From NCBI RefSeq assembly GCF_029392895.1, contig NZ_CP114200.1:3131001-3195000 (forward strand): a stretch of DNA of 64,000 nucleotides, given 5' to 3'. Both the position numbers and the translations under genes were made by a program. The DNA is from Streptomyces sp. 71268 (GTDB taxonomy: Bacteria; Actinomycetota; Actinomycetes; Streptomycetales; Streptomycetaceae). Shown here one piece after another: positions 30,457-41,460 of the stretch. The notes under the pieces are model-generated. The model ran no database searches and had not been told where the DNA came from. It saw only the letters and a program-made list of their open reading frames with translations. Each line of letters starts with the position of its first letter. Within the stretch, counting starts at the first letter, position 1.

Positions 30457-31395
30457 ATGATCGAGGTACCGGAGCAGTTCAAGCGGACCACCATCGAGCG
30501 CGAGGGCTCGGCCGGGGCGGCGTGGGTCGAGCAACTCCCCGCCCTGACGTCCCAGTTGTCGGACCGCTGGGAGTGCGTGCCGGACGGGGACGTGGGGCAC
30601 GGGGCGGTCGGGATCGTCGTACCGGTGGTACGGCGACGGGACGCGGCACCGGCCGTGATCAAGGTGTCGTTCCCGCACCCGGGCAACGTCCACGAGCCTG
30701 ACGCGTTCGCGGTCTGGGGTGGGCGCGGGGCGGTGCTCCTGTACGAGCGCGACGACGAGCACTTCGCCATGCTGTTGGAGCGCGCCCACCCGGAGACGCT
30801 GGCCGGCGTCGCGGACGGTGACGAGGTCGCGGCGACCGCCGGGCAGCTCAGCCGCCGGCTCGCCGTGCCGGCCCCCGCCGACCTGCCGCGACTGCGGGAC
30901 CGGGTCGCGGAGTGGGGGCCGGAACTCCGCACGGACGCCGACGAGTTGCCGCACGGCATGTCGTCCCGCGTCCTGGACGCCGCCGCCGCGACCGTCCGCG
31001 AGTTGGGCCCCGACCAGCCGGACACCCTCGTCCACGGCGACCTGCACGCCCGCAACATCCTGCGGGCCGACCGCGAACCCTGGCTGGTCATCGACCCCAA
31101 GGGGTACGTGGGGGACCCGGCGTACGACGCCGGTGCCCTGCTGACGTCGTGCGCGGTGCCGCTCGTCGAGTCCGGCGGCGATCTGGCCGGGGGCCTCCGT
31201 CGGGCGGTGGAGGTCTTCGCGGAGGCGGCCGAGCTGGACCGGGTACGTGTGCGGCGCTGGGCTCAACTGCACGCCGTACGCGCGGCGTTCTGGGGACGCC
31301 GGCACGGGTTCACCGTGGCCCGGAACGGGCCCGATCGGGACCAGGTCGTACAGCTGGCGGAGCATGTGGCGGAGTTGTTCACCGCCGGCGCGTAG
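30457..31395 (+). CDS. Streptomycin-6-kinase-like phosphotransferase
   Basis: 312 aa from ATG 30457; no strong ribosome site, TACTGT lies 6 nt upstream, so leaderless translation is likely. The kinase-like fold is marked by VIKVSFPHPGN (ATP-binding Lys near 69), catalytic HGDLHARN (193-200) and VIDPKGYVGDPAYDAG (metal Asp213). The last motif, with PKGYVGD, matches the aminoglycoside/hydroxyurea kinase group (APH(6)-like) rather than APH(3'). Housekeeping streptomycete members of this group are frequent, so resistance cannot be claimed without testing. Confidence 0.88.
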   Translation: MIEVPEQFKRTTIEREGSAGAAWVEQLPALTSQLSDRWECVPDGDVGHGAVGIVVPVVRRRDAAPAVIKVSFPHPGNVHEPDAFAVWGGRGAVLLYERDDEHFAMLLERAHPETLAGVADGDEVAATAGQLSRRLAVPAPADLPRLRDRVAEWGPELRTDADELPHGMSSRVLDAAAATVRELGPDQPDTLVHGDLHARNILRADREPWLVIDPKGYVGDPAYDAGALLTSCAVPLVESGGDLAGGLRRAVEVFAEAAELDRVRVRRWAQLHAVRAAFWGRRHGFTVARNGPDRDQVVQLAEHVAELFTAGA

Positions 31396-32530: not shown

Positions 32531-33439
32531 TCAGCCCAACAGGTGCGAGTCGCGCCACAGCCGCATGCCCGGGGCGCCGACCAGGCCGGCGTCGTCCAGG
32601 AACGGCACGATGCGCTCGCCGAGGAACCGCATCGACTCCCGGTAGTGCGGGTTCGCGTGGGCGGCCCGCCACGCCTCCCTGGGGTCGAGGCCGACGGCCG
32701 CGTAGGCCCGTGGATGTATCAGGCTGCGACAGATGCAGTACGAGACAAGGGCGGTGAGCAGCCGCTGGTAGCGGAGTTCGGCGCGGCCGAGCCCGGCCAT
32801 GCCCCGGACGACCTCCTCGCGGGCGAAGGTGACGTGGCGCGCCTCCTCCATGATGTGGATGCGGTTCACCATCCGCATCAGCGGCTGGATCTCGTCGCTG
32901 CCGGTCATCTCGCGCTGGAGCCGGTCGGTGATCTCCTCGGCGACCAGGATGGAGCCGTACATGGCCGGGCCGTACGCGATGGCCGGCAGGATCTTGGCGA
33001 CCTGGTGCAGGTGGCGCGGCGGGCCGTACGCCGGGCAGTCGATGCGTTCCACGAGCCGGGCGAACATGGTGACGTGCCGGCACTCGTCGGCGACCTCGGT
33101 CAGCGCGTACTGGATGTGGCGGGTGCGCGTGTCGCCGTTGTACGCGGCCTTGACCAGCATCTTCATCAACAGCAGCTCGAACCAGAGGCCGACGCTGACG
33201 ATGGTCGCGGCCTCGTGCTTGCCGAGTTCGAGCCGCTGCTCCTCGCTGAGCCGGTCCCACAGCGGGGTGCCGTAGAGGGATATGCGGTGGGGCAGCAGGT
33301 AGTGCTTGCCGTCGACCAGCGGCGCGTCCCAGTCGATGTCCACCTCGGGGTCGTAGAACTTCTTCGCCGACGAGGCCAGCAGTCGGGCGGCGGTCTTCTC
33401 CCTGTCGCCCACCTTCGTATCGGGCAGTGAACGGGCCAT
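32531..33439 (-). CDS. AurF-type diiron oxygenase
   Basis: 302-aa soluble oxygenase of the p-aminobenzoate N-oxygenase (AurF) family. The start is ATG 33439, with AAGGAG 9 nt upstream; a GTG six codons earlier overlaps that ribosome site. The iron ligands can be placed by spacing: FELL (E88), EVADECRH (E119, H122), E168, and HIMEEARH (H195, E199, H202), which keeps the E-x2-H and H-x3-E-x2-H spacing of AurF. The substrate is unknown; N-oxygenation is not assured. Divergent from the DUF4873 gene across a palindrome at 33467. Confidence 0.87.
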   Translation of the reverse strand: MARSLPDTKVGDREKTAARLLASSAKKFYDPEVDIDWDAPLVDGKHYLLPHRISLYGTPLWDRLSEEQRLELGKHEAATIVSVGLWFELLLMKMLVKAAYNGDTRTRHIQYALTEVADECRHVTMFARLVERIDCPAYGPPRHLHQVAKILPAIAYGPAMYGSILVAEEITDRLQREMTGSDEIQPLMRMVNRIHIMEEARHVTFAREEVVRGMAGLGRAELRYQRLLTALVSYCICRSLIHPRAYAAVGLDPREAWRAAHANPHYRESMRFLGERIVPFLDDAGLVGAPGMRLWRDSHLLG

Positions 33440-33466
33440 GGCGCTCCACTCCTTCACGAACTAAGG

Positions 33467-33483
33467 TGTTACCCGAGGTAACA
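33467..33483. promoter_or_regulatory. TetR-type palindromic operator
   Basis: TGTTACC-CGA-GGTAACA is a perfect 7-bp inverted repeat, 28 bp before the diiron oxygenase start. No regulator gene is adjacent, so it would be bound by a protein encoded elsewhere. Confidence 0.7.
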
Positions 33484-33665
33484 GCCACTCTCAGGAGCAT
33501 GGAATCTCTCGTTACGGGAGTCAAGGGCCCGGCACCCGTCAGCAACGTCGGCGGGTGCGCCCGCCGAACGAAGACGTCCGCGAGCGCGCCCGCCGCGCGG
33601 ACACGGCCGACCGGGCCCGCCGCACCACGCCAAGGCGTCGAGGAATCGTCCCAAGGAGCCGTGCA

Positions 33666-34118
33666 GTGAACGCCGTCACGCCACAGCACCAGCCTCAGTC
33701 CCAGCCGTCACCCGACCGCACCCCCGCCACCACACCCACGCGCACCACGCAGGACGCGCAGGGCGCACATGGCACACAGAGCGCGCACAGCACGCACGAG
33801 AACCCCGACCACGAAGCGGGCTACCGTGGGCCCGCCACCCTGGAGTTCGAGGGCGAGGAGCGCGTCGTCGACGTGGAGTTGCGCGGTACGTTCCAACCGG
33901 TCGACGGGCGCTACCACTGGTACGGCCGGGTCGTCGGCGCCCCGGAACTCGTCGCCCTCCTCGGCGGCAGGCGCACCGCCGCCCTCATCCGTACCCCGCA
34001 GGGCGAGGCACGGGGCGAGTTGTCCGACCCCGACCCGTGTTACCGCTACCGCGTCACCGGTACGAGCACGCCACCCTTCCGCGTCCCGGGCCCGAACGAC
34101 CCGCCGCCCGTGGCCTGA
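33666..34118 (+). CDS. DUF4873-domain protein
   Basis: 150 aa from GTG 33666, with AAGGAG 7 nt upstream; the longer open frame is Arg-rich and rejected. The first 45 residues are Gln/Thr/His/Ala low complexity. The domain (about 50-140) reads GYRGPATLEFEGEERVVDVE, then LRGTFQPVDGRYHWYGRV, a pattern I associate with DUF4873, often found near flavin monooxygenases or diiron oxygenases in actinobacteria. No catalytic residues are known. It shares the control region with the divergent diiron gene, so a common pathway is likely. Confidence 0.8.
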   Translation: MNAVTPQHQPQSQPSPDRTPATTPTRTTQDAQGAHGTQSAHSTHENPDHEAGYRGPATLEFEGEERVVDVELRGTFQPVDGRYHWYGRVVGAPELVALLGGRRTAALIRTPQGEARGELSDPDPCYRYRVTGTSTPPFRVPGPNDPPPVA

Positions 34119-34135
34119 CGGCCCCCGCCACGCAC

Positions 34136-34175
34136 TCCCACCCCACCGAACGCCCCCACCCCACCGAGCGCCCCC
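34136..34175. repeat. Short direct repeat between convergent genes
   Basis: CCCCACCGAACGCCCCCA and CCCCACCGAGCGCCCCC follow each other, an 18-bp unit in two copies with one substitution. Confidence 0.5.
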
Positions 34176-34194
34176 GCCCAACTCGTCGGCGCCG

Positions 34195-35415
34195 TCACGG
34201 CAGCGGCGGGTGGCGGTGCTCCCAGCGCAGTCCGAGGCGGCTCGGCGCGTCGATCCAGTAGGTGTGCGCCTCCCGCGTGACGCGTAGCCGTACCGCGTCG
34301 ATGCCCGGCTCCCCCGCCGCCCGCCACCCGGTGATCGCGCGCTCCACGGCGTCCCAGAGCGCCAGCGGCCCGCCCTGCCGGACCACCCACCCGTCACCCT
34401 CCGGCGCCAGCTCGGCGAACGACTCCCGCTCCGCGTCGATCAGGTACCGCCTCTCCGTCCCCCCGGCCACCGCCCGCAACAACTGGGCGGTTGGCGCGGC
34501 CAGTTGGGCCAGGAAGGCCGGCATCCAGTCGCGGAGCGCGTCGGGCGGGACGCGCGCGCGGCGGACGCTGTCGGCGTACGCGGCGCGCGCCGCCAGGCTC
34601 CCGCCCAACGGTACGGCGGCCTGCGCGCGGGCCGGCATGAACGACGACGGGCCGGTGACGCGCCCCTCGGCCGTGCCGTCCGCCGCGACGACGACCTTGG
34701 CCAGCCCCGTCCCGTACGACCAACTGCCCACCGTGGCCAGGACGATGGCGCCGGGGCGGGCCTGCCGGAGCCAGGTGTGGGGGATGCGGCGCACCGCGCA
34801 GGTGGCGATGATCCGGTCGTACGGGGCGCGGGACGGGTGGCCGAGGAGGCCGTCGTCGGTGACGGTCCAGGTGGAGTAGCCGGCGACCTCCAGCGCGTCG
34901 TCGGCCCGGCGCGCGAGGTCGGGGTCGGCCTCCACGGTGGTCACGTTGTCCTCGCCGAGGCGGTGGCAGAGCAGGGCCGTGGAGTAGCCGGTGCCGGTGC
35001 CGATCTCCAGGACGCGGTCGCCGTCGCGCACCTCCAGCTCCTCCAGCATGCCGACGACCGTGGCCGGCGCGGTGGACGAGGAGGTGGGGTAGCCCTCGAC
35101 GGGTCCGGTGGCCTGGTCCGGGGTGAGGGCCCCGTCGAGCTGGGTGACCAGCGACTGGTCGCTGTAGGCGAGTTCGGCCCACTCCTCGGGGCGCAGCCCG
35201 TCCGGGGTCACGGGTCGCCAGCGCGCGGCCTGGCCCTCGGGCGCCTCGGGCAGGAACACGCCGCCGCCCAGGAACCGTTCGCGGGGCACCGCGCGGACGG
35301 CCGCCGCCCAGTCGGGGCCGATGGGTCGCTCGGCTTCGAGGCGGTCGAGCAGGGCGCCGCGCGCCGCGCTCAGGGCGGAGCAGGGGGACTCGGGGGCGGT
35401 TCTGTGGCCATTCAT
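34195..35415 (-). CDS. tgmC: Graspetide-associated isoaspartyl-methyltransferase-like enzyme
   Basis: 406 aa from ATG 35415, overlapping the ligase stop (ATGA), with AAGGAG inside the ligase 3' end. Residues about 105-260 are a protein-L-isoaspartate O-methyltransferase domain: SSSTAPATVVGMLEELEV, then DRVLEIGTGTGYSTALL, VTTVEADPDLARRA and YDRIIATCAVRRIP. The extra C-terminal 150 residues are typical of the ATP-grasp-peptide methyltransferase family (TgmC). In fuscimiditide-type graspetides, PIMT homologues methylate an Asp of the cross-linked peptide, giving aspartimide. The same reaction on the product of this cluster is inferred. Confidence 0.88.
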   Translation of the reverse strand: MNGHRTAPESPCSALSAARGALLDRLEAERPIGPDWAAAVRAVPRERFLGGGVFLPEAPEGQAARWRPVTPDGLRPEEWAELAYSDQSLVTQLDGALTPDQATGPVEGYPTSSSTAPATVVGMLEELEVRDGDRVLEIGTGTGYSTALLCHRLGEDNVTTVEADPDLARRADDALEVAGYSTWTVTDDGLLGHPSRAPYDRIIATCAVRRIPHTWLRQARPGAIVLATVGSWSYGTGLAKVVVAADGTAEGRVTGPSSFMPARAQAAVPLGGSLAARAAYADSVRRARVPPDALRDWMPAFLAQLAAPTAQLLRAVAGGTERRYLIDAERESFAELAPEGDGWVVRQGGPLALWDAVERAITGWRAAGEPGIDAVRLRVTREAHTYWIDAPSRLGLRWEHRHPPLP

Positions 35416-36374
35416 GGCTCTCCTTGGGCGAGGAGGTCGGCGAACGCGGCGGCGAGCGGCAGCCCGGCCGCGTCTTCGAGCCATCCCCACTGGCCGTTGG
35501 GGTTCAACTCCAGCCAGTGCAGCGTCCCGTCCCGGCCGAGGGCGAGGTCAAAGCTGCCACTGGCCAGTCCGAAGTGACGCAAGAAACGCACGAGTCCCTC
35601 TGCGGTCTGAGTGGGGAGGTCGATCACGCGGTAGGTCAGGGCTCCGTAGTCGCGTCGCCAGTCGAGTAGTTCCGAGTCGATGCGTACCGCAAAGACGCGC
35701 CCGCCCACGACCACCACCCGCACGTCAGCGACCTTGTCCACGCGGGACTGGAAGAGGTGCGGTACGACCTTGACGCTCTCGTCCAGCTCCACGGGGTCCA
35801 CCGGTTCGGTCCAGGTCGTCAGCCCCTGACCGTCCGGGTCGTGGTACGCCGTCCAGCGCAACGCCTTGTAGACGACGGGTCCGTGGGCCCGCATGAAGGA
35901 TCGGATCTCCCCTAGGTCGTTGGAGATGAGTGTGGGGGGCACGGTGAAGCCCATGCGGGTGGCCGTGGCGAGTTGGAGGGGCTTGTGTTCGGCGGCGTAG
36001 TTGCGTAACGGGTGATTGACGTACCGGCATTCCGTCAGCGCGTGCAGGATGCCGCCCAGTCCGTAGCGCACCTGGGCCGCGGCGAAGCGCGCGTCCGGCG
36101 CGGCCAGGTGCGGGAACCGGGGCCAGACGGGCCGCCGCCAGTACACCGCGCGCACCCGCTCCAGCGCGGTTGCCCTGGAGGAGGTGCGCAGTGAACCGGA
36201 CGGGGTGGGAGCGCCGGCGCCGAACCGCGCCGACACGTGCAGTGCGTCGCCGATGTCCGCGGGGTTGAAGCGGACCACGGGGACGCGCCTGCGGTTCAGC
36301 TCGGCGATCACCATGCTGGCCGTGACGTCGTCCGGCTCGGTCACGACCAGCACCGGCCCGGCGGTCCGTGCCAT
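35412..36374 (-). CDS. tgmB: ATP-grasp ribosomal peptide maturase (graspetide ligase)
   Basis: Forms side-chain ester or amide links between Thr/Ser or Lys and Asp/Glu of a precursor peptide, using ATP. 320 aa from ATG 36374, whose A overlaps the precursor stop (TGATG). Features are VLVVTEPDDVTASMVIAELN at the N-terminus, the ATP-binding VVYKALRWTAY segment, VADVRVVVVGGRVFAVRIDS and the metal-binding WLELNPNGQWGWLE near the C-terminus, as in MvdD-like ligases. Codon 123 (plus 36006-36008) is TTA, so maturation may be under bldA control. Confidence 0.92.
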   Translation of the reverse strand: MARTAGPVLVVTEPDDVTASMVIAELNRRRVPVVRFNPADIGDALHVSARFGAGAPTPSGSLRTSSRATALERVRAVYWRRPVWPRFPHLAAPDARFAAAQVRYGLGGILHALTECRYVNHPLRNYAAEHKPLQLATATRMGFTVPPTLISNDLGEIRSFMRAHGPVVYKALRWTAYHDPDGQGLTTWTEPVDPVELDESVKVVPHLFQSRVDKVADVRVVVVGGRVFAVRIDSELLDWRRDYGALTYRVIDLPTQTAEGLVRFLRHFGLASGSFDLALGRDGTLHWLELNPNGQWGWLEDAAGLPLAAAFADLLAQGEP

Positions 36375-36634
36375 CAGTCCTGCTCGCTGTCCTGATCGTG
36401 GTCGGTGTCGTTGCGGCTGTCCATGTTGGTGCTCTCCGCCGCGGTCTCGGTGCCCCGCGCGGTGCCGTGCTTCCCCATCTCGACGACCTGGCCCCGGCTG
36501 TCCCAGTACACGGTGAGCTGGGTCGTCGGGTCGACGCCGACGCGGGCGTGTCCGGCCGGGCGTATGGGCGGGTACGGGCGCATCCGCCCCACGCCCCAGG
36601 GGCGCAGGGCGGTACGGCCCACGGTGTTGGTCAT
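36374..36634 (-). CDS. tgmA: Graspetide precursor peptide
   Basis: 86 aa from ATG 36634, with a strong GGAGGAG site 4-5 nt upstream. Leader region: RPWGVGRMRPYP (11-22) is the recognition-like motif of ATP-grasp target peptides, followed by VDPTTQLTVYWDSRGQVVEM (34-53). The core begins about KHGT (55-58): Thr/Ser residues T58, T62, T64, S68, T69, S73 and T77 precede or intersperse a very acidic end, NMDSRNDTDHDQDSEQD (70-86), with seven acidic side chains. This donor-then-acceptor order is that of graspetides. No cleavage protease or transporter gene is adjacent. First gene of a three-gene overlapping operon. Confidence 0.88.
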   Translation of the reverse strand: MTNTVGRTALRPWGVGRMRPYPPIRPAGHARVGVDPTTQLTVYWDSRGQVVEMGKHGTARGTETAAESTNMDSRNDTDHDQDSEQD

Positions 36635-37053
36635 GTACTCCTCCGGGCGGTGTGGCTGCGGTGTGGCGATGTCCTCGCTCTCGTTATGTGCCCACTGGAA
36701 CGACGGCCGTCGCCGTCCCGACGCCCCGGGTTTCCCCTACCGCCGTGGTGTTCGCAGCACGAGGCGCCCCGCGCCTCCGCCGTCGCGCGCCCCGTCCGCG
36801 CCGCGGACGGCGGCCCTCCGACGCCGCGCCGCGCGCCCGCCCCCGGGAGCGCGCCACCGCGTGTCCGGTCGCGCACCATCGGCCCGCGAGCGCGCGGCGC
36901 GCGACGGCGCGCGCCCACTCGGCCGGGCCACTCCCCGCCCCCACCTCGCGCCCAGAACGCCCGAAACACCCGAAACACCCACCCCGCCCAGTGGGCCTCC
37001 CACGTGACCCACCTCATCGTGTTGGCTATACAACTTCAGTTACGGTGGCCGCC
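36635..37053. other. Gene-free 419-bp divergent region
   Basis: It separates the graspetide operon from the EamA locus. TATACA (37027-37032) and TACGGT (37041-37046) are -10-like boxes for the rightward unit; CATAACG near 36682 is a possible -10 for the graspetide operon. GTTG-GCTATA-CAAC (37021-37034) is a small inverted repeat. The rest is Arg/Pro-biased shadow frames. Confidence 0.45.
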
Positions 37054-37164
37054 ATGGACGACGCTCCCCCATGTCCCCCTGGCCCTTCCCGCCCCGCCGA
37101 CCACGCATCGGCCGCCAGCGCGCGTGAGGTGTCCGCCGCCAGTGCGCGCCGGGCGTCCGGGTGA
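37054..37164 (+). CDS. 36-codon upstream ORF coupled to EamA gene
   Basis: ATG 37054 lies 7 nt after TACGGT, a leaderless arrangement. The peptide starts MDDAPPCPPGPSRPADHASA and contains a repeated SAASAR/VSAASAR stretch. Its TGA overlaps the GTG of the EamA gene, so translation would be coupled. It could be a leader that sets expression of the transporter; coding status is not proven. Confidence 0.45.
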   Translation: MDDAPPCPPGPSRPADHASAASAREVSAASARRASG

Positions 37165-38012
37165 CGCCGCTCGTCGCGGCGGCCGTCCTGGTCGCGGCCG
37201 TCACGCACGCGAGTTGGAACGCCATCGCGCACGGCATCAGGGACCAGCTCCTCGCCTTCACGCTGGTCTCCGGCGGCGGCCTGGTGTGCGGGCTCGGCAT
37301 CGCCGTGTGGGCGCCCGTGCCGGCCGCTGGGGCCTGGCCGTACCTCGTGGCCTCCGCCGTGATCCACGTGCTCTACCAGGCGCTGCTGATGCGCTCGTTC
37401 CGGCTCGGCGACTTCGGGCAGATGTACCCGATCGCGCGCGGTACGGCGCCGCTGGTGGTGACCGTGCTCGCCGCGGTCTTCGTGCACGAGAGACCGGGCG
37501 GCTGGCAGACGGCGGGCGTCGTCCTCGCCTCGGCCGGTCTGGTGGGCCTGGCCCTGTGGGGCATCCGTGGCTCCGGTGGCCGGCCGCACTGGGCGGCGCT
37601 GGCCGCCGCCGTGGCCACGGGCCTGTCGATCGCCGCGTACACCGTCGTGGACGGCGTGGGCGTGCGCGCCTCCGGTACCTCGCTCGGCTACATCGGCTGG
37701 CTGATGATCCTGGAGGGCATCGCCATTCCGGCGTACGCGCTGGCCACCCGGCGTCGCATGCTCGTCGGCCAGCTCAGGCCGGTGGCGGTGCGTGGCCTGT
37801 GTGGCGGGGTGCTGTCGGTCTTCGCGTACGGGCTCGTGCTGTGGGCGCAGACCAGGGCGCCGCTCGCGCCGATCGCCGCGCTGCGCGAGTCCAGCATCAT
37901 CGTGGGCGCCGCGATCGGCGCGCTGTTCCTCAAGGAGCGCTTCGGCACGGCCCGTATCGCCGCCGCCGGCCTGATGGTCGCGGGCATCGGCCTGATGCTC
38001 TACGCCGGCTGA
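37161..38012 (+). CDS. EamA/DMT-family transporter
   Basis: 283-aa membrane protein from GTG 37161 with ten predicted helices in two EamA halves. Family-like segments are THASWNAIAHG near residue 15, QMYPIARGTAPLVVTVLAAV (about 90-110) and the C-terminal APLAPIAALRESSIIVGAAI (about 233-252). There is no ribosome site before the GTG except through the overlapping upstream ORF. Such proteins export metabolites or amino acids; the substrate is unknown. It faces away from the graspetide operon, so peptide export is not supported. Confidence 0.88.
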   Translation: MTPLVAAAVLVAAVTHASWNAIAHGIRDQLLAFTLVSGGGLVCGLGIAVWAPVPAAGAWPYLVASAVIHVLYQALLMRSFRLGDFGQMYPIARGTAPLVVTVLAAVFVHERPGGWQTAGVVLASAGLVGLALWGIRGSGGRPHWAALAAAVATGLSIAAYTVVDGVGVRASGTSLGYIGWLMILEGIAIPAYALATRRRMLVGQLRPVAVRGLCGGVLSVFAYGLVLWAQTRAPLAPIAALRESSIIVGAAIGALFLKERFGTARIAAAGLMVAGIGLMLYAG

Positions 38013-38124: not shown

Positions 38125-41100
38125 CTACCGCAGCACGCCGAGCGAGACGAAGTCGTAGCCGCCCCCGTACGCGCTGGTCGTCGTGACGTTCGTCAGCCGT
38201 GGGTTGCGCCAGGTCAGCGCCTTCTCGAAGGTCAGCGGCAGGTAGGCGGCCGCGTCGGAGACCTTGTGGTTGATCCGCTGGTCGTCGCTCTCGGCCCGCC
38301 CCTGGTCCTGGTTGGCGCGGGAGGTGTCGAAGAGCTTGTCGAGCGCCTTGTCCCTGAGGAGGGCGACGTTGAGGTTGCCCTGCGGGGTGATCCGCCGCCC
38401 GTCGGCCAGCGGCTCCAGCATGCCGCGCCCGGTTGGGTAGTCGGCGCTCCACCGCCTGAGGCTGATGCCGTACCCCTTGCGCTTGACCTGGTCGGGCTTG
38501 CCGATCGCCGTGGCGAACTCGGCGAACGGCAGTTGCTCGACCTTCACCGAGATCCCCACCCGCGCCAGCGACGCCTTGATCGCCTCCGCGACCGCCACCT
38601 CCTGCGGCCCGTCCGAGACGGCCACGGTGGTACGGAAGCCGGTCGGCTTGCCGCACTCCTTCAACTCCTGCCGCGCCCGCTCCAGGTCCGGCGCGCCACC
38701 CGAGCGCTTGGTGCCGTACGGGTCGTAGTCCGGCTCGCTGCCCGAGACGCCCGGCGGCAGCAGGTGCGGGGCGAGTTCGTCGCCCACCCGCGGGTCTCCG
38801 GTGGCCGCCCGCACGGACCGCTTGTCCGTCGCGTAGAAGACCGCCCTGCGGCAGTGCACGTCGTTGAACGGGGCGACGTTGGAGGCCAGCGCCGCGTAGC
38901 GGACGATCCCGGTGTGCGGGTTGTCCACCTGGGCCTTCGTCTTCGCGTCGTCCAGCAACCGCACGCGCTGGCTGGCGTCGACGCCGAAGGCGCTGATGTC
39001 CAGGTCGTAGCGGCCCGCGCGCAGCTCCTGGTCCCGCGTGGTGGGCGAGACCACGATGTCGACGCTGATCCGGTCCGGCAGCGCGGTGCGCACCGGGTCG
39101 GAGGACCGCTGCCACCGCTCGTTGCGCACCAGGGTCAGCGACTTGCCCGGCTGGTACGCGTCGAACTTGTACGGGCCCGAGGAGAACGGCCGCTGCGCGT
39201 ACGTGGCCCGGGTGTCCTTCGCCCGTGGCACCGGCGATGCGGAGGGCATCGCGAGCAGGTGCTCGAAGTCCCGGTAGGGCCGGGGCAGTTTGAAGGTGAT
39301 CGTCCGGTCGTTCGGCGTCTGGATCGCGCGCAGCCCCAGCTTGTCCTTCGCCTTGTCCTTGTACGGGCCCGGGTAGTCGCTCTTGGGGTCGAGCACCTCG
39401 CGCAGGTAGGAGGGCCCGCCGCTGATCACGTCGGCGGCCCAGGTCCGCTCGATGCCGTACTTGACGTCCTTGGAGGTCACCGGCGTGCCGTCCTCCCAGG
39501 TGGCCCCGGGGCGCAGCGTGTACGTGTACGTCTTGCCGCCGTCCCCCACCCGGGCCCGCCCGGTCGCGAGGTCCGGCACCAGGCGCGCGGGGCCGGCGCC
39601 CGGCTCGGTGGCGTAGGTGAGGAGTTGGCGGGCGTAGAAGCGGGAGAAGTTCCACGTGAACCCGTAGTAACCGCGCTGCGGGTCCCAGGAGTCGGCGTCC
39701 ATCGTCGAGACGAACTTGAGGGTGCCGCCCTGCCGCTTCGACGGGTTGACGACGCCCTTGGTCGCGGCGTCGTACGCGGCGACGCCGGGCCCGCCACCGG
39801 GCTTGTCGCCCTCGGCGCCCGGGTTCCCGCTCGCGCTCTGGCTGGCCTTGGGCCGGTCCGTCGGAGCGTCCTTACTCCCCTTGTCCTCCGGCCACACGAC
39901 GGTGATCACCGCCCCGGCGACCACGGCGAGGGCCACCGCCAGCGCGCCGTACCGCACCCGCCGTTGCCGCCACCACGGCCCGTCGGTCCCGTCCGCGCGC
40001 GGCGGCGGCGCGAACCCCGCCCCGGCGCCGACGGCGGACGGCGCGGCCTGCGCCGGTGGCGCGCCCGGGGCGCCCGACTGCGGCCCGAAGGGCGGGGGCG
40101 GCGCCGGCAGCGATCCGGGGTACGGGGCGGGCGGCGCGCCGTACGGGGCGGGTTGCGCACCCGGTTGCGGGCCTGGCTGCGGGCCTGGCTGCGCTCCCGG
40201 TTGCGCGGGTGGCGGTGGAGCGGCGTGCGGGCCGGCTGGCCCGGCCGGTGCGGCCGGCGGCTGGCCGGGGTGCGCGGCGGGCTGCTGTCCCGGCGCGGCG
40301 CCGAAGGACGGTGGTGAGGTCGCGTCGAACGGCGGCGGGGCGGCGCCGAAGGCGGGCGGAGGCGCCCCGAACGCGCCGGGTTGCGCCGGCGCGGCAGACG
40401 GGGCCGCCGGGTTCGTGGACGGGGGCGCGTCCGCAGGTGGCGCGTCCCGGGGTACGGCATCGGCGGGTGGCGGCGCGTCCTCGGGTACGGCGTCCACGGG
40501 CGATGCCGCGGCAGTGTCCGGCACGGGCCGGGCGTCGGGTCCTGCCTCGGGGCCGGCCGGGTCGCCCGCCGTGCCCAGCGTCACGGTCGGCGTCGACGCC
40601 GGCGGCGCGGCCGGCGGCATGGCCCGGAGTAGGGTCGTCGCTCCGAAGGGCGCGGCCCCGGTCGAGGCCGCGTTGCGGACGAACGCCACCCGGCCCGCCT
40701 CGGCCGCGCCGCTCAGGTCGCGGCGCTCGGGCAGCGCCCGCTCCCGGCCCGCCAGGCTCGCGCGGCTGTGCTCGTACACCATGTCGAGCCGCAGCGCCTC
40801 GGGCCCGTACGCCATGCCGTCCGCCGCCATCCGCAGCAACTCACCGGTGAAGGACGTGTGTTGGTCCTCCTCCGAGGCGTACGCGTCGAGGTCGCCGGTC
40901 GCGGCGGCCAGCACGTAGCCGTCGGCGAGCTGGGCCGCGTCTGCCACCGCGACGGCCCCGCCCCGCGCGTCGGACGGAGCGGTGGTGGACGCCGAACCGG
41001 ACGCCGACCCAGCCGCCGGGTCGGACGGCGAGCCCGGCACCGGTTCGGTCAGGCAGCAGTCGAGCAGCACCACCCGGCGCCGCGCGCGCCCGGACAACAC

Positions 41101-41460
41101 GGCCTGGCGCAGCGTCGCGTAGTCGAGCCCCGTGGCCGACCGCCCTGGCGCCGGGGCGGCCGGGGCGAAGACCAACTCGCCGCTCGCCGGGTCGATACGG
41201 CAGCGCCCGGCCACGTAAACCAGCAGGACGTCGGTGGCCTCGGCGGCGGCGGTGCGCACGGCGGCGACGGCGTCGGAGGTCACGGGTTCGGCCAGTACCG
41301 CGCAGTGCTCGCGGGCCAGGTCCCAGGAGCGGTCCGAGGTGAGGACGTCGGCGAGCGCGACGAGGTTGGCCGCCACGGCGGGCAACGGCGCGATCTCGGC
41401 GTTGCCGGTGGTGCCGATGAGTACGGCGCGGGACACGGCCGGGTCGGGCATGACCTCCAC
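38125..41460 (-). CDS. Caspase-like domain / TM / family-5 substrate-binding protein fusion
   Basis: 1111 aa; GTG 41460 taken as start, ATG 41451 (MPDPAVSRAVLIG) is an alternative. Residues about 8-265 are a caspase/metacaspase-like p20 domain: SRAVLIGTTGN at the start, ATDVLLVYVAGRCRID where the catalytic His of the usual GHG is Arg86, and RRVVLLDCCL with the DCC nucleophile site at 134-136. A Pro/Ala/Gln linker (about 290-490), one TM helix (505-523) and a spacer lead to an extracellular SBP_bac_5 domain (about 577-1111: SSGPYKFDAYQPGKSLTLVR, YATDKRSVRAATG, NLNVALLRDKALDKLF). Intracellular protease-like part and extracellular peptide-binding part on one chain suggest a transmembrane signalling or conflict protein. 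Confidence 0.85.
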   Translation of the reverse strand: MEVMPDPAVSRAVLIGTTGNAEIAPLPAVAANLVALADVLTSDRSWDLAREHCAVLAEPVTSDAVAAVRTAAAEATDVLLVYVAGRCRIDPASGELVFAPAAPAPGRSATGLDYATLRQAVLSGRARRRVVLLDCCLTEPVPGSPSDPAAGSASGSASTTAPSDARGGAVAVADAAQLADGYVLAAATGDLDAYASEEDQHTSFTGELLRMAADGMAYGPEALRLDMVYEHSRASLAGRERALPERRDLSGAAEAGRVAFVRNAASTGAAPFGATTLLRAMPPAAPPASTPTVTLGTAGDPAGPEAGPDARPVPDTAAASPVDAVPEDAPPPADAVPRDAPPADAPPSTNPAAPSAAPAQPGAFGAPPPAFGAAPPPFDATSPPSFGAAPGQQPAAHPGQPPAAPAGPAGPHAAPPPPAQPGAQPGPQPGPQPGAQPAPYGAPPAPYPGSLPAPPPPFGPQSGAPGAPPAQAAPSAVGAGAGFAPPPRADGTDGPWWRQRRVRYGALAVALAVVAGAVITVVWPEDKGSKDAPTDRPKASQSASGNPGAEGDKPGGGPGVAAYDAATKGVVNPSKRQGGTLKFVSTMDADSWDPQRGYYGFTWNFSRFYARQLLTYATEPGAGPARLVPDLATGRARVGDGGKTYTYTLRPGATWEDGTPVTSKDVKYGIERTWAADVISGGPSYLREVLDPKSDYPGPYKDKAKDKLGLRAIQTPNDRTITFKLPRPYRDFEHLLAMPSASPVPRAKDTRATYAQRPFSSGPYKFDAYQPGKSLTLVRNERWQRSSDPVRTALPDRISVDIVVSPTTRDQELRAGRYDLDISAFGVDASQRVRLLDDAKTKAQVDNPHTGIVRYAALASNVAPFNDVHCRRAVFYATDKRSVRAATGDPRVGDELAPHLLPPGVSGSEPDYDPYGTKRSGGAPDLERARQELKECGKPTGFRTTVAVSDGPQEVAVAEAIKASLARVGISVKVEQLPFAEFATAIGKPDQVKRKGYGISLRRWSADYPTGRGMLEPLADGRRITPQGNLNVALLRDKALDKLFDTSRANQDQGRAESDDQRINHKVSDAAAYLPLTFEKALTWRNPRLTNVTTTSAYGGGYDFVSLGVLR

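Follow-up and report, generated by a model that had tools for sequence, protein, structure and literature searches.

A graspimiditide-type gene cluster with an Asp-Ser loop and a distinct predicted stem in Streptomyces sp. 71268

The stretch of 64,000 nucleotides of the Streptomyces sp. 71268 genome analysed here (the window) carries on its minus strand, in this order, the genes of a precursor peptide, an ATP-grasp ligase and a PIMT-like methyltransferase (Table 1), which by their sequences form a locus for a group 13 graspetide, or graspimiditide. Such loci are known and common, and the product of this one is very probably a small peptide with the form of an ester-stapled hairpin, one loop Asp of which is turned into a reactive imide. 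The system itself is common and already catalogued, and the locus falls in a branch of it, here called type A, for which no described product was found. The initial annotation had recognised a graspetide cluster of the fuscimiditide type with a PIMT-like enzyme and had proposed a search with three TIGR models; when this was run, the precursor reached 83.8 bits against TIGR04186 (cut-off 25), the ligase 381.7 bits against TIGR04187 (cut-off 350) and the methyltransferase 471.5 bits against TIGR04188 (cut-off 380), so that all three proteins exceed the curated cut-offs, and family matches of the three genes are far from chance. The assignment is borne out by these matches together with the description of the class, in which PIMT-like methyltransferases beside actinobacterial graspetide ligases are the mark of group 13 graspetides, or graspimiditides (PMC13001092). 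Three surveys have counted 962, 1326 and 1432 clusters (PMC13001092, PMC10787088).

Table 1. Features of the cluster, with positions in the window
Feature	Positions	Strand	Basis
Precursor peptide, 86 aa	36374..36634	-	TIGR04186, PF14408
Likely ribosome-binding site GGAGGAG, ahead of the precursor gene	36638..36644	-	Sequence upstream of the precursor
Leader region, residues 1-55, with RPWGVGRMRPYP	36470..36634	-	Conserved in alignment; boundary at K55, which no other lysine accompanies in the chain, chosen for convenience
Presumed core, residues 56-86, HGTARGTETAAESTNMDSRNDTDHDQDSEQD	36377..36469	-	Presumed boundary
Predicted loop N70-M-D72-S-R-N75, D72 the presumed methylation/aspartimide site	36410..36427	-	N70, D72 and S73 invariant in 40 homologues; role inferred from PMC13001092
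ATP-grasp ligase, 320 aa	35412..36374	-	TIGR04187
LELNPNGQW of the ligase	35487..35513	-	E and N each in 69/71 aligned ligases
PIMT-like methyltransferase of 406 aa, extended at the C-terminus	34195..35415	-	TIGR04188, PF01135
SAM-binding motif EIGTGTGYST of the methyltransferase	34978..35007	-	GxGxG-type motif, kept across 73 aligned methyltransferases bar one exception at one Gly
WRAAGEP (= WXXXGXP), methyltransferase residues 364-370	34306..34326	-	W 70/73, G 67/73, P 70/73 aligned methyltransferases

The coordinates, strands and overlaps given earlier for the three genes were all reproduced: the precursor stop and the ligase ATG share base 36374 (1 bp), the ligase stop and the methyltransferase ATG overlap by 4 bp at 35412-35415, and none of the three frames is interrupted. 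Scans for promoters and terminators over 33400-37300 were negative. By sequence, the ligase comes closest to solved ATP-grasp ligases including AMdnB and CdnC, and we take ELN within its LELNPNGQW to be the metal/ATP motif; the methyltransferase comes closest to solved protein isoaspartate methyltransferases, and its WXXXGXP motif is the one reported for RiPP-associated PIMTs (PMC13001092). Searches of solved structures with two profiles and two single cores returned no graspimiditide entry (one profile gave 13 chance-level matches and the other queries none). An imiditide or type I pamtide, made of precursor and PAMT with no other primary modification enzyme, was rejected since an ATP-grasp ligase sits between them here. 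A metal-binding acidic tail that stays unmodified was also considered and was dropped in view of the family to which the ligase belongs. Codon 123 of the ligase gene is a rare TTA, the single one in that gene, and such codons were counted, over best-match spans, in 16/80 ligases, 0/75 methyltransferases and 0/67 precursors; this may hint at bldA control.

The leader motif RPWGVGRMRP and the tail NMDSRNDTDHDQDSEQD pointed out in the initial annotation are both present in the precursor, and the seven acidic residues ascribed to the tail were found; the seven Thr/Ser were not reproduced, because the tail holds 3, and the 31-residue core from H56 to D86 holds 8, along with 9 acidic residues. This core carries a Thr/Ser arm, a loop Asp and then an Asp arm, as graspimiditides require, and in an alignment of 40 homologues unselected by core T62, T64, T69, N70, D72, S73, D76, D80, D82 and D86 show no variation. 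The residue after D72 is Ser, unlike the Asp-Gly of the four characterised graspimiditides, which have two to five Thr-Asp esters, a stem-loop and a methylated loop Asp with Gly after it; according to the same 2026 review, Gly after the methylated Asp is not class-defining and Ser is among the predicted following residues (PMC13001092).

The sequence of the window core places it in the type A sub-lineage. The ligases of this sub-lineage cluster with one another, and its cores commonly read HGTSKGTETxPQSTNxDSRNDTDHDQDSEQD; those of type B commonly read HGTSSGTETSTTTNSDSRNDQGHDQDSxQD. The selecting patterns of the two types fix H56, T/S58, G/A61, T62, T64, S68, T69, N70, D72 and S73, so that the invariance of type A in the first arm and loop is partly due to selection, and they leave D76, D78, D80, D82 and D86 free. 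These five Asp are unvarying in 56/56 distinct type A cores, and the equivalent of D78 is Gly in 74/74 distinct 30-residue type B cores. Trees were built from the enzymes of sufficient length in 81 sequences (70 ligases, 72 methyltransferases), with the window added, and in that of the 71 ligases a single branch parts the 14 of type A from the rest (FastTree 0.93; SH-aLRT 91, under the 95 mark). The type A methyltransferases were split by FastTree, and a tree constrained to group them scored higher and was not rejected (AU p 0.78), for which reason a contrast between a ligase that follows the type A core and a methyltransferase that does not was dropped.

We consider it likely, with good confidence, that the cluster makes a graspimiditide, with nested stem-loop esters formed by the ligase and an aspartimide formed at D72 through the methyltransferase; we infer the ester and imide chemistry, the exact connectivity, the choice of D72, the loss of the leader and the export of the product. 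By analogy with characterised members, the ligase would recognise the leader and spend ATP in linking Thr/Ser in the first arm with Asp in the second through their side chains, closing a nested stem-loop with T58-D86, T62-D82, T64-D80 and an inner ester of S68 or T69 with D76, possibly from the loop outward, as reported for amycolimiditide (PMC13003496). The SAM-dependent methyltransferase would then methylate D72 in the loop N-M-D-S-R-N, graspimiditide methyltransferases being reported to act on the cyclised peptide without need of the leader (PMC13001092), and the methyl ester would close to an aspartimide, from which partial hydrolysis to isoaspartate is possible. The leader would be removed by a protease and the product released by an exit route, both probably encoded elsewhere; native leader proteases of graspimiditides are given as not determined in PMC12291112, and the function of the class as still open in PMC13001092.

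The connectivity was approached with a constant-sum rule, by which the positions of hairpin-facing donor and acceptor add to one constant, in a set of 263 anchored precursors of 13 core types; Asp and the C-terminus were allowed to accept, and shuffles within each arm served as the null (2 of 265 precursors, L035 and L129, were dropped, and the anchor is misplaced for the L128 type). With Thr as donors, 6/13 core types had p < 0.05 (Fisher 1.5e-7), and with Thr/Ser 3/13 (Fisher 4.7e-4), combined p-values that overstate independence because the 13 core types are related. Across these types, then, the sequences favour nested Thr-Asp esters in mirror register, and the rule agrees with the links T3-D22 and T7-D18 of fuscimiditide (PMC12291112). 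The window core alone gives 4 pairs with Thr/Ser (p 0.17), and with Thr only (p 0.60) the sums 30 and 34 tie at 3 pairs each. The ring pattern, which the initial annotation had left open among seven acidic and seven Thr/Ser side chains, is narrower than was proposed, since the mirroring tendency across related cores leaves few nested ladders, although the window core by itself does not single out one register. Judged from sequence comparisons, the ladder given above, with its four rungs around D72, has about an even chance of being the right one; its inner T69-D76, as the alternative to S68-D76, is drawn from likeness to type B.

Variation among the homologues was also read against this register. 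By eye, L066 has gained one more mirrored pair, made of T and D, and in L097 and L120 the two residues of the T62 rung are missing together; but Thr also stands at the place gained in L066 in four type B cores, and there it faces E, E, Q or N, never D. The pairing of K/R60 with E84, which falls on the favoured register, was counted as 20/6/2/34 in 62 loci, with p 6e-5 within 74 type B cores and p 1.0 within type A; this co-variation was not accepted as evidence and is kept as a hint only, because the independent contrasts, 3 on starred branches and 5 when every branch is counted, are too few and not significant.

A register shifted to T64-D76, T62-D78 and T58-D82, tricyclic and with D80, E84 and D86 free, appears unlikely, even though its three pairs (sum 30) are the joint best Thr count for the window core, together with sum 34. 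It would close a loop of 11 residues, within the 10-12 reported for graspimiditides (PMC12291112), against 6-7 in the inner ring of the favoured ladder, and it would give a role to the invariant D78, which is specific to type A and has none in that ladder. The favoured register is preferred because it uses D80 and D86, which are invariant in 56/56 type A cores and in the 40 mixed homologues and would stay idle in the shifted one, and because it serves type B too; with Gly at the equivalent of D78 in all 74 type B cores, the shifted register would require different rings in the two types. D78 could instead take part in a fifth ester, S68-D78, added out of mirror register to the favoured four, which we regard as improbable to much the same degree. 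Type A does have five conserved donors (T58, T62, T64, S68 and T69, in 56 distinct cores) for its five invariant acceptors, type B is without the equivalent of D78, and SsfA is a known member with five esters (PMC10787088). On the other hand, S68, T69 and T62/T64 stand in the selecting pattern and owe their invariance to it, S68 and D78 never vary in type A and so give the pairing no variation to show, and ThfB made no adjacent crosslinks (PMC12291112). Less likely still is the combined proposal that the type A lineage leads to a pentacyclic graspimiditide in which the S68-D78 rung breaks the mirror register and the aspartimide lies at Asp-Ser, the first in the class without Gly.

For the loop, the question is whether the aspartimide is the end product or an intermediate on the way to isoaspartate at position 72. 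Imide closure is slower at Asp-Ser than at Asp-Gly, and this is counted against the aspartimide explanation. Isoaspartate as the end product seems doubtful to us: preparations of SsfA(BM) contained isoAsp and Asp side by side (PMC10787088, PMC13001092), but for fuscimiditide, amycolimiditide and albusimiditide it was the aspartimide form that was purified (PMC13001092). That the cluster is intact yet silent, or decaying, and gives no product is very improbable. In Streptomyces philanthi bv. triangulum (L003:9157-10444) the precursor is open and the methyltransferase frame is interrupted and resumes in another frame, which may reflect gene decay or a sequencing error, and at L035:8001-8336 a precursor with an aberrant, longer C-terminal end has neither a ligase nor a methyltransferase match nearby; in the window, in contrast, all frames are open and the family motifs present, and the precursor of S. 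buecherae, 99% identical to that of the window, still has both enzymes adjoining.

No described product of the window core type was found in the available literature, and the survey of Choi et al. 2023 may already list the motif. The view that the core cannot be matched to a described product thus holds as far as the comparison goes, fuscimiditide having been compared by the stem letters given in the text (PMC12291112) and two others through inferred relatives only. Albusimiditide, from S. albus J1074 (renamed S. albidoflavus J1074), has the same three-gene layout, with Asp-Gly in the loop where the window has Asp-Ser (PMC13001092). Its stand-in was the L066 core of S. albidoflavus NRRL B-1271, presumed to be close to it, which has HGT..GTET..T and NDQGHDQDS.xD in common with the window's relatives and differs in its added mirrored T/D, where the window has R60/E84, and in Gly in place of D78. 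SsfA(BM), from Streptomyces sp. F-3, likewise comes from precursor, ligase and PAMT, with a loop Asp modified after cyclisation, and differs in its Asp-Gly and in the link from side chain to C-terminus postulated for SsfA (PMC10787088). As printed, SsfA has a fragment 63-97 after GluC, G77-T78, D81-G82-N83 and S89, and four Asp and no Glu in its last 12 residues (PMC10787088); cores like L135, which match these positions, are its inferred counterpart, and judged on such cores (L135, L082) the stem spacing differs from that of the window. Applied to the L069 core, related to L135, the constant-sum rule yields five rungs, of which the outermost ends at the C-terminus, and five is the number reported for SsfA (PMC10787088). 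Fuscimiditide and amycolimiditide share with the predicted product nested Thr-Asp esters and a loop aspartimide (PMC12291112, PMC13003496), and have two and four esters, respectively, with Asp-Gly and loops of 10-12 residues, unlike the window (PMC13001092, PMC12291112).

The window genome holds two precursors, that of the window and another at C1:4575255-4575479, which belongs to a second cluster, of type B (L153:4983-7158). It too comprises precursor, ligase and methyltransferase, each enzyme 63% identical to the window's, and both loops read N-x-D-S; its core differs in that the first arm is one residue shorter, a further Thr precedes the inner one by two residues, and the equivalent of D78 is Gly. 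Two native cores in one genome, with the shared loop, differing stems and enzymes of this identity, would make swaps of ligase and methyltransferase feasible. A conserved Asp-Ser lineage with a different stem would test the dependence of the methyltransferase on the residue after Asp, and the type A stem how the ligase reads stem spacing, while the constant-sum rule, if true, would allow ring prediction for many uncharacterised cores. Both core types also occur in S. buecherae AC541 (L004, L028). TIGR04188 gave 11 matches in the window genome, 3 of them over the cut-off, the third being a methyltransferase of 443 bits at C1:2856653-2857720 (L154:6624-7766) with an oligopeptide ABC ATPase frame upstream; no recognised precursor accompanies it, and no TIGR04187 ligase was found in the genome outside the two clusters.

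A match to the precursor family was found in 107/150 sampled genomes of the window's genus, 105 of them over the cut-off. The precursor profile matched 518 proteins, of which 120 were listed, and the 60 genus precursors were high-ranking matches picked from the genus list, not a random sample; among named relatives, S. buecherae and S. philanthi come closest. Among the 80 loci kept of 93, a ligase homologue lies just downstream of the precursor in 79 and a methyltransferase homologue also downstream in 74 (tblastn 1e-15); the six without a methyltransferase match (L035, L051, L070, L073, L078, L081) lump together absence, cut contigs and frame breaks. No protease was found beside the cluster, in line with the initial annotation. 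A gene of an EamA-type transporter does lie divergently upstream (37161-38012), but this transporter is near the precursor in only 2/81 sequences, both close relatives. By-eye reading of the flanking ORFs of the 80 loci (2701 ORFs, many spurious, with only groups in at least 6 loci inspected) recognised no conserved protease or exporter, so that their lack at the window is normal.

In that survey the largest group, in 19 loci, had by eye the appearance of an XRE/DUF5753-type regulator, and one in 6 loci, at scattered places, that of an ABC import ATPase. Of 81 sequences, L003 and L004 alone gave matches to the neighbours of the window cluster (AurF-like oxygenase, DUF4873, EamA transporter, IMPase, APH-like kinase and solute-binding protein), and this gene order is therefore common to close relatives and outside the system. 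These neighbours include a homologue of APH(6)-type kinases (PF04655) at 30457-31395 on the plus strand, the AurF-like oxygenase (PF11583) at 32531-33457 on the minus strand and, at 38125-41460 on the minus strand, a protein of 1111 aa with an SBP_bac_5 solute-binding part at residues 627-1021, preceded by a long Pro/Ala-rich stretch and by an N-terminus that, by eye only, appears caspase-like.
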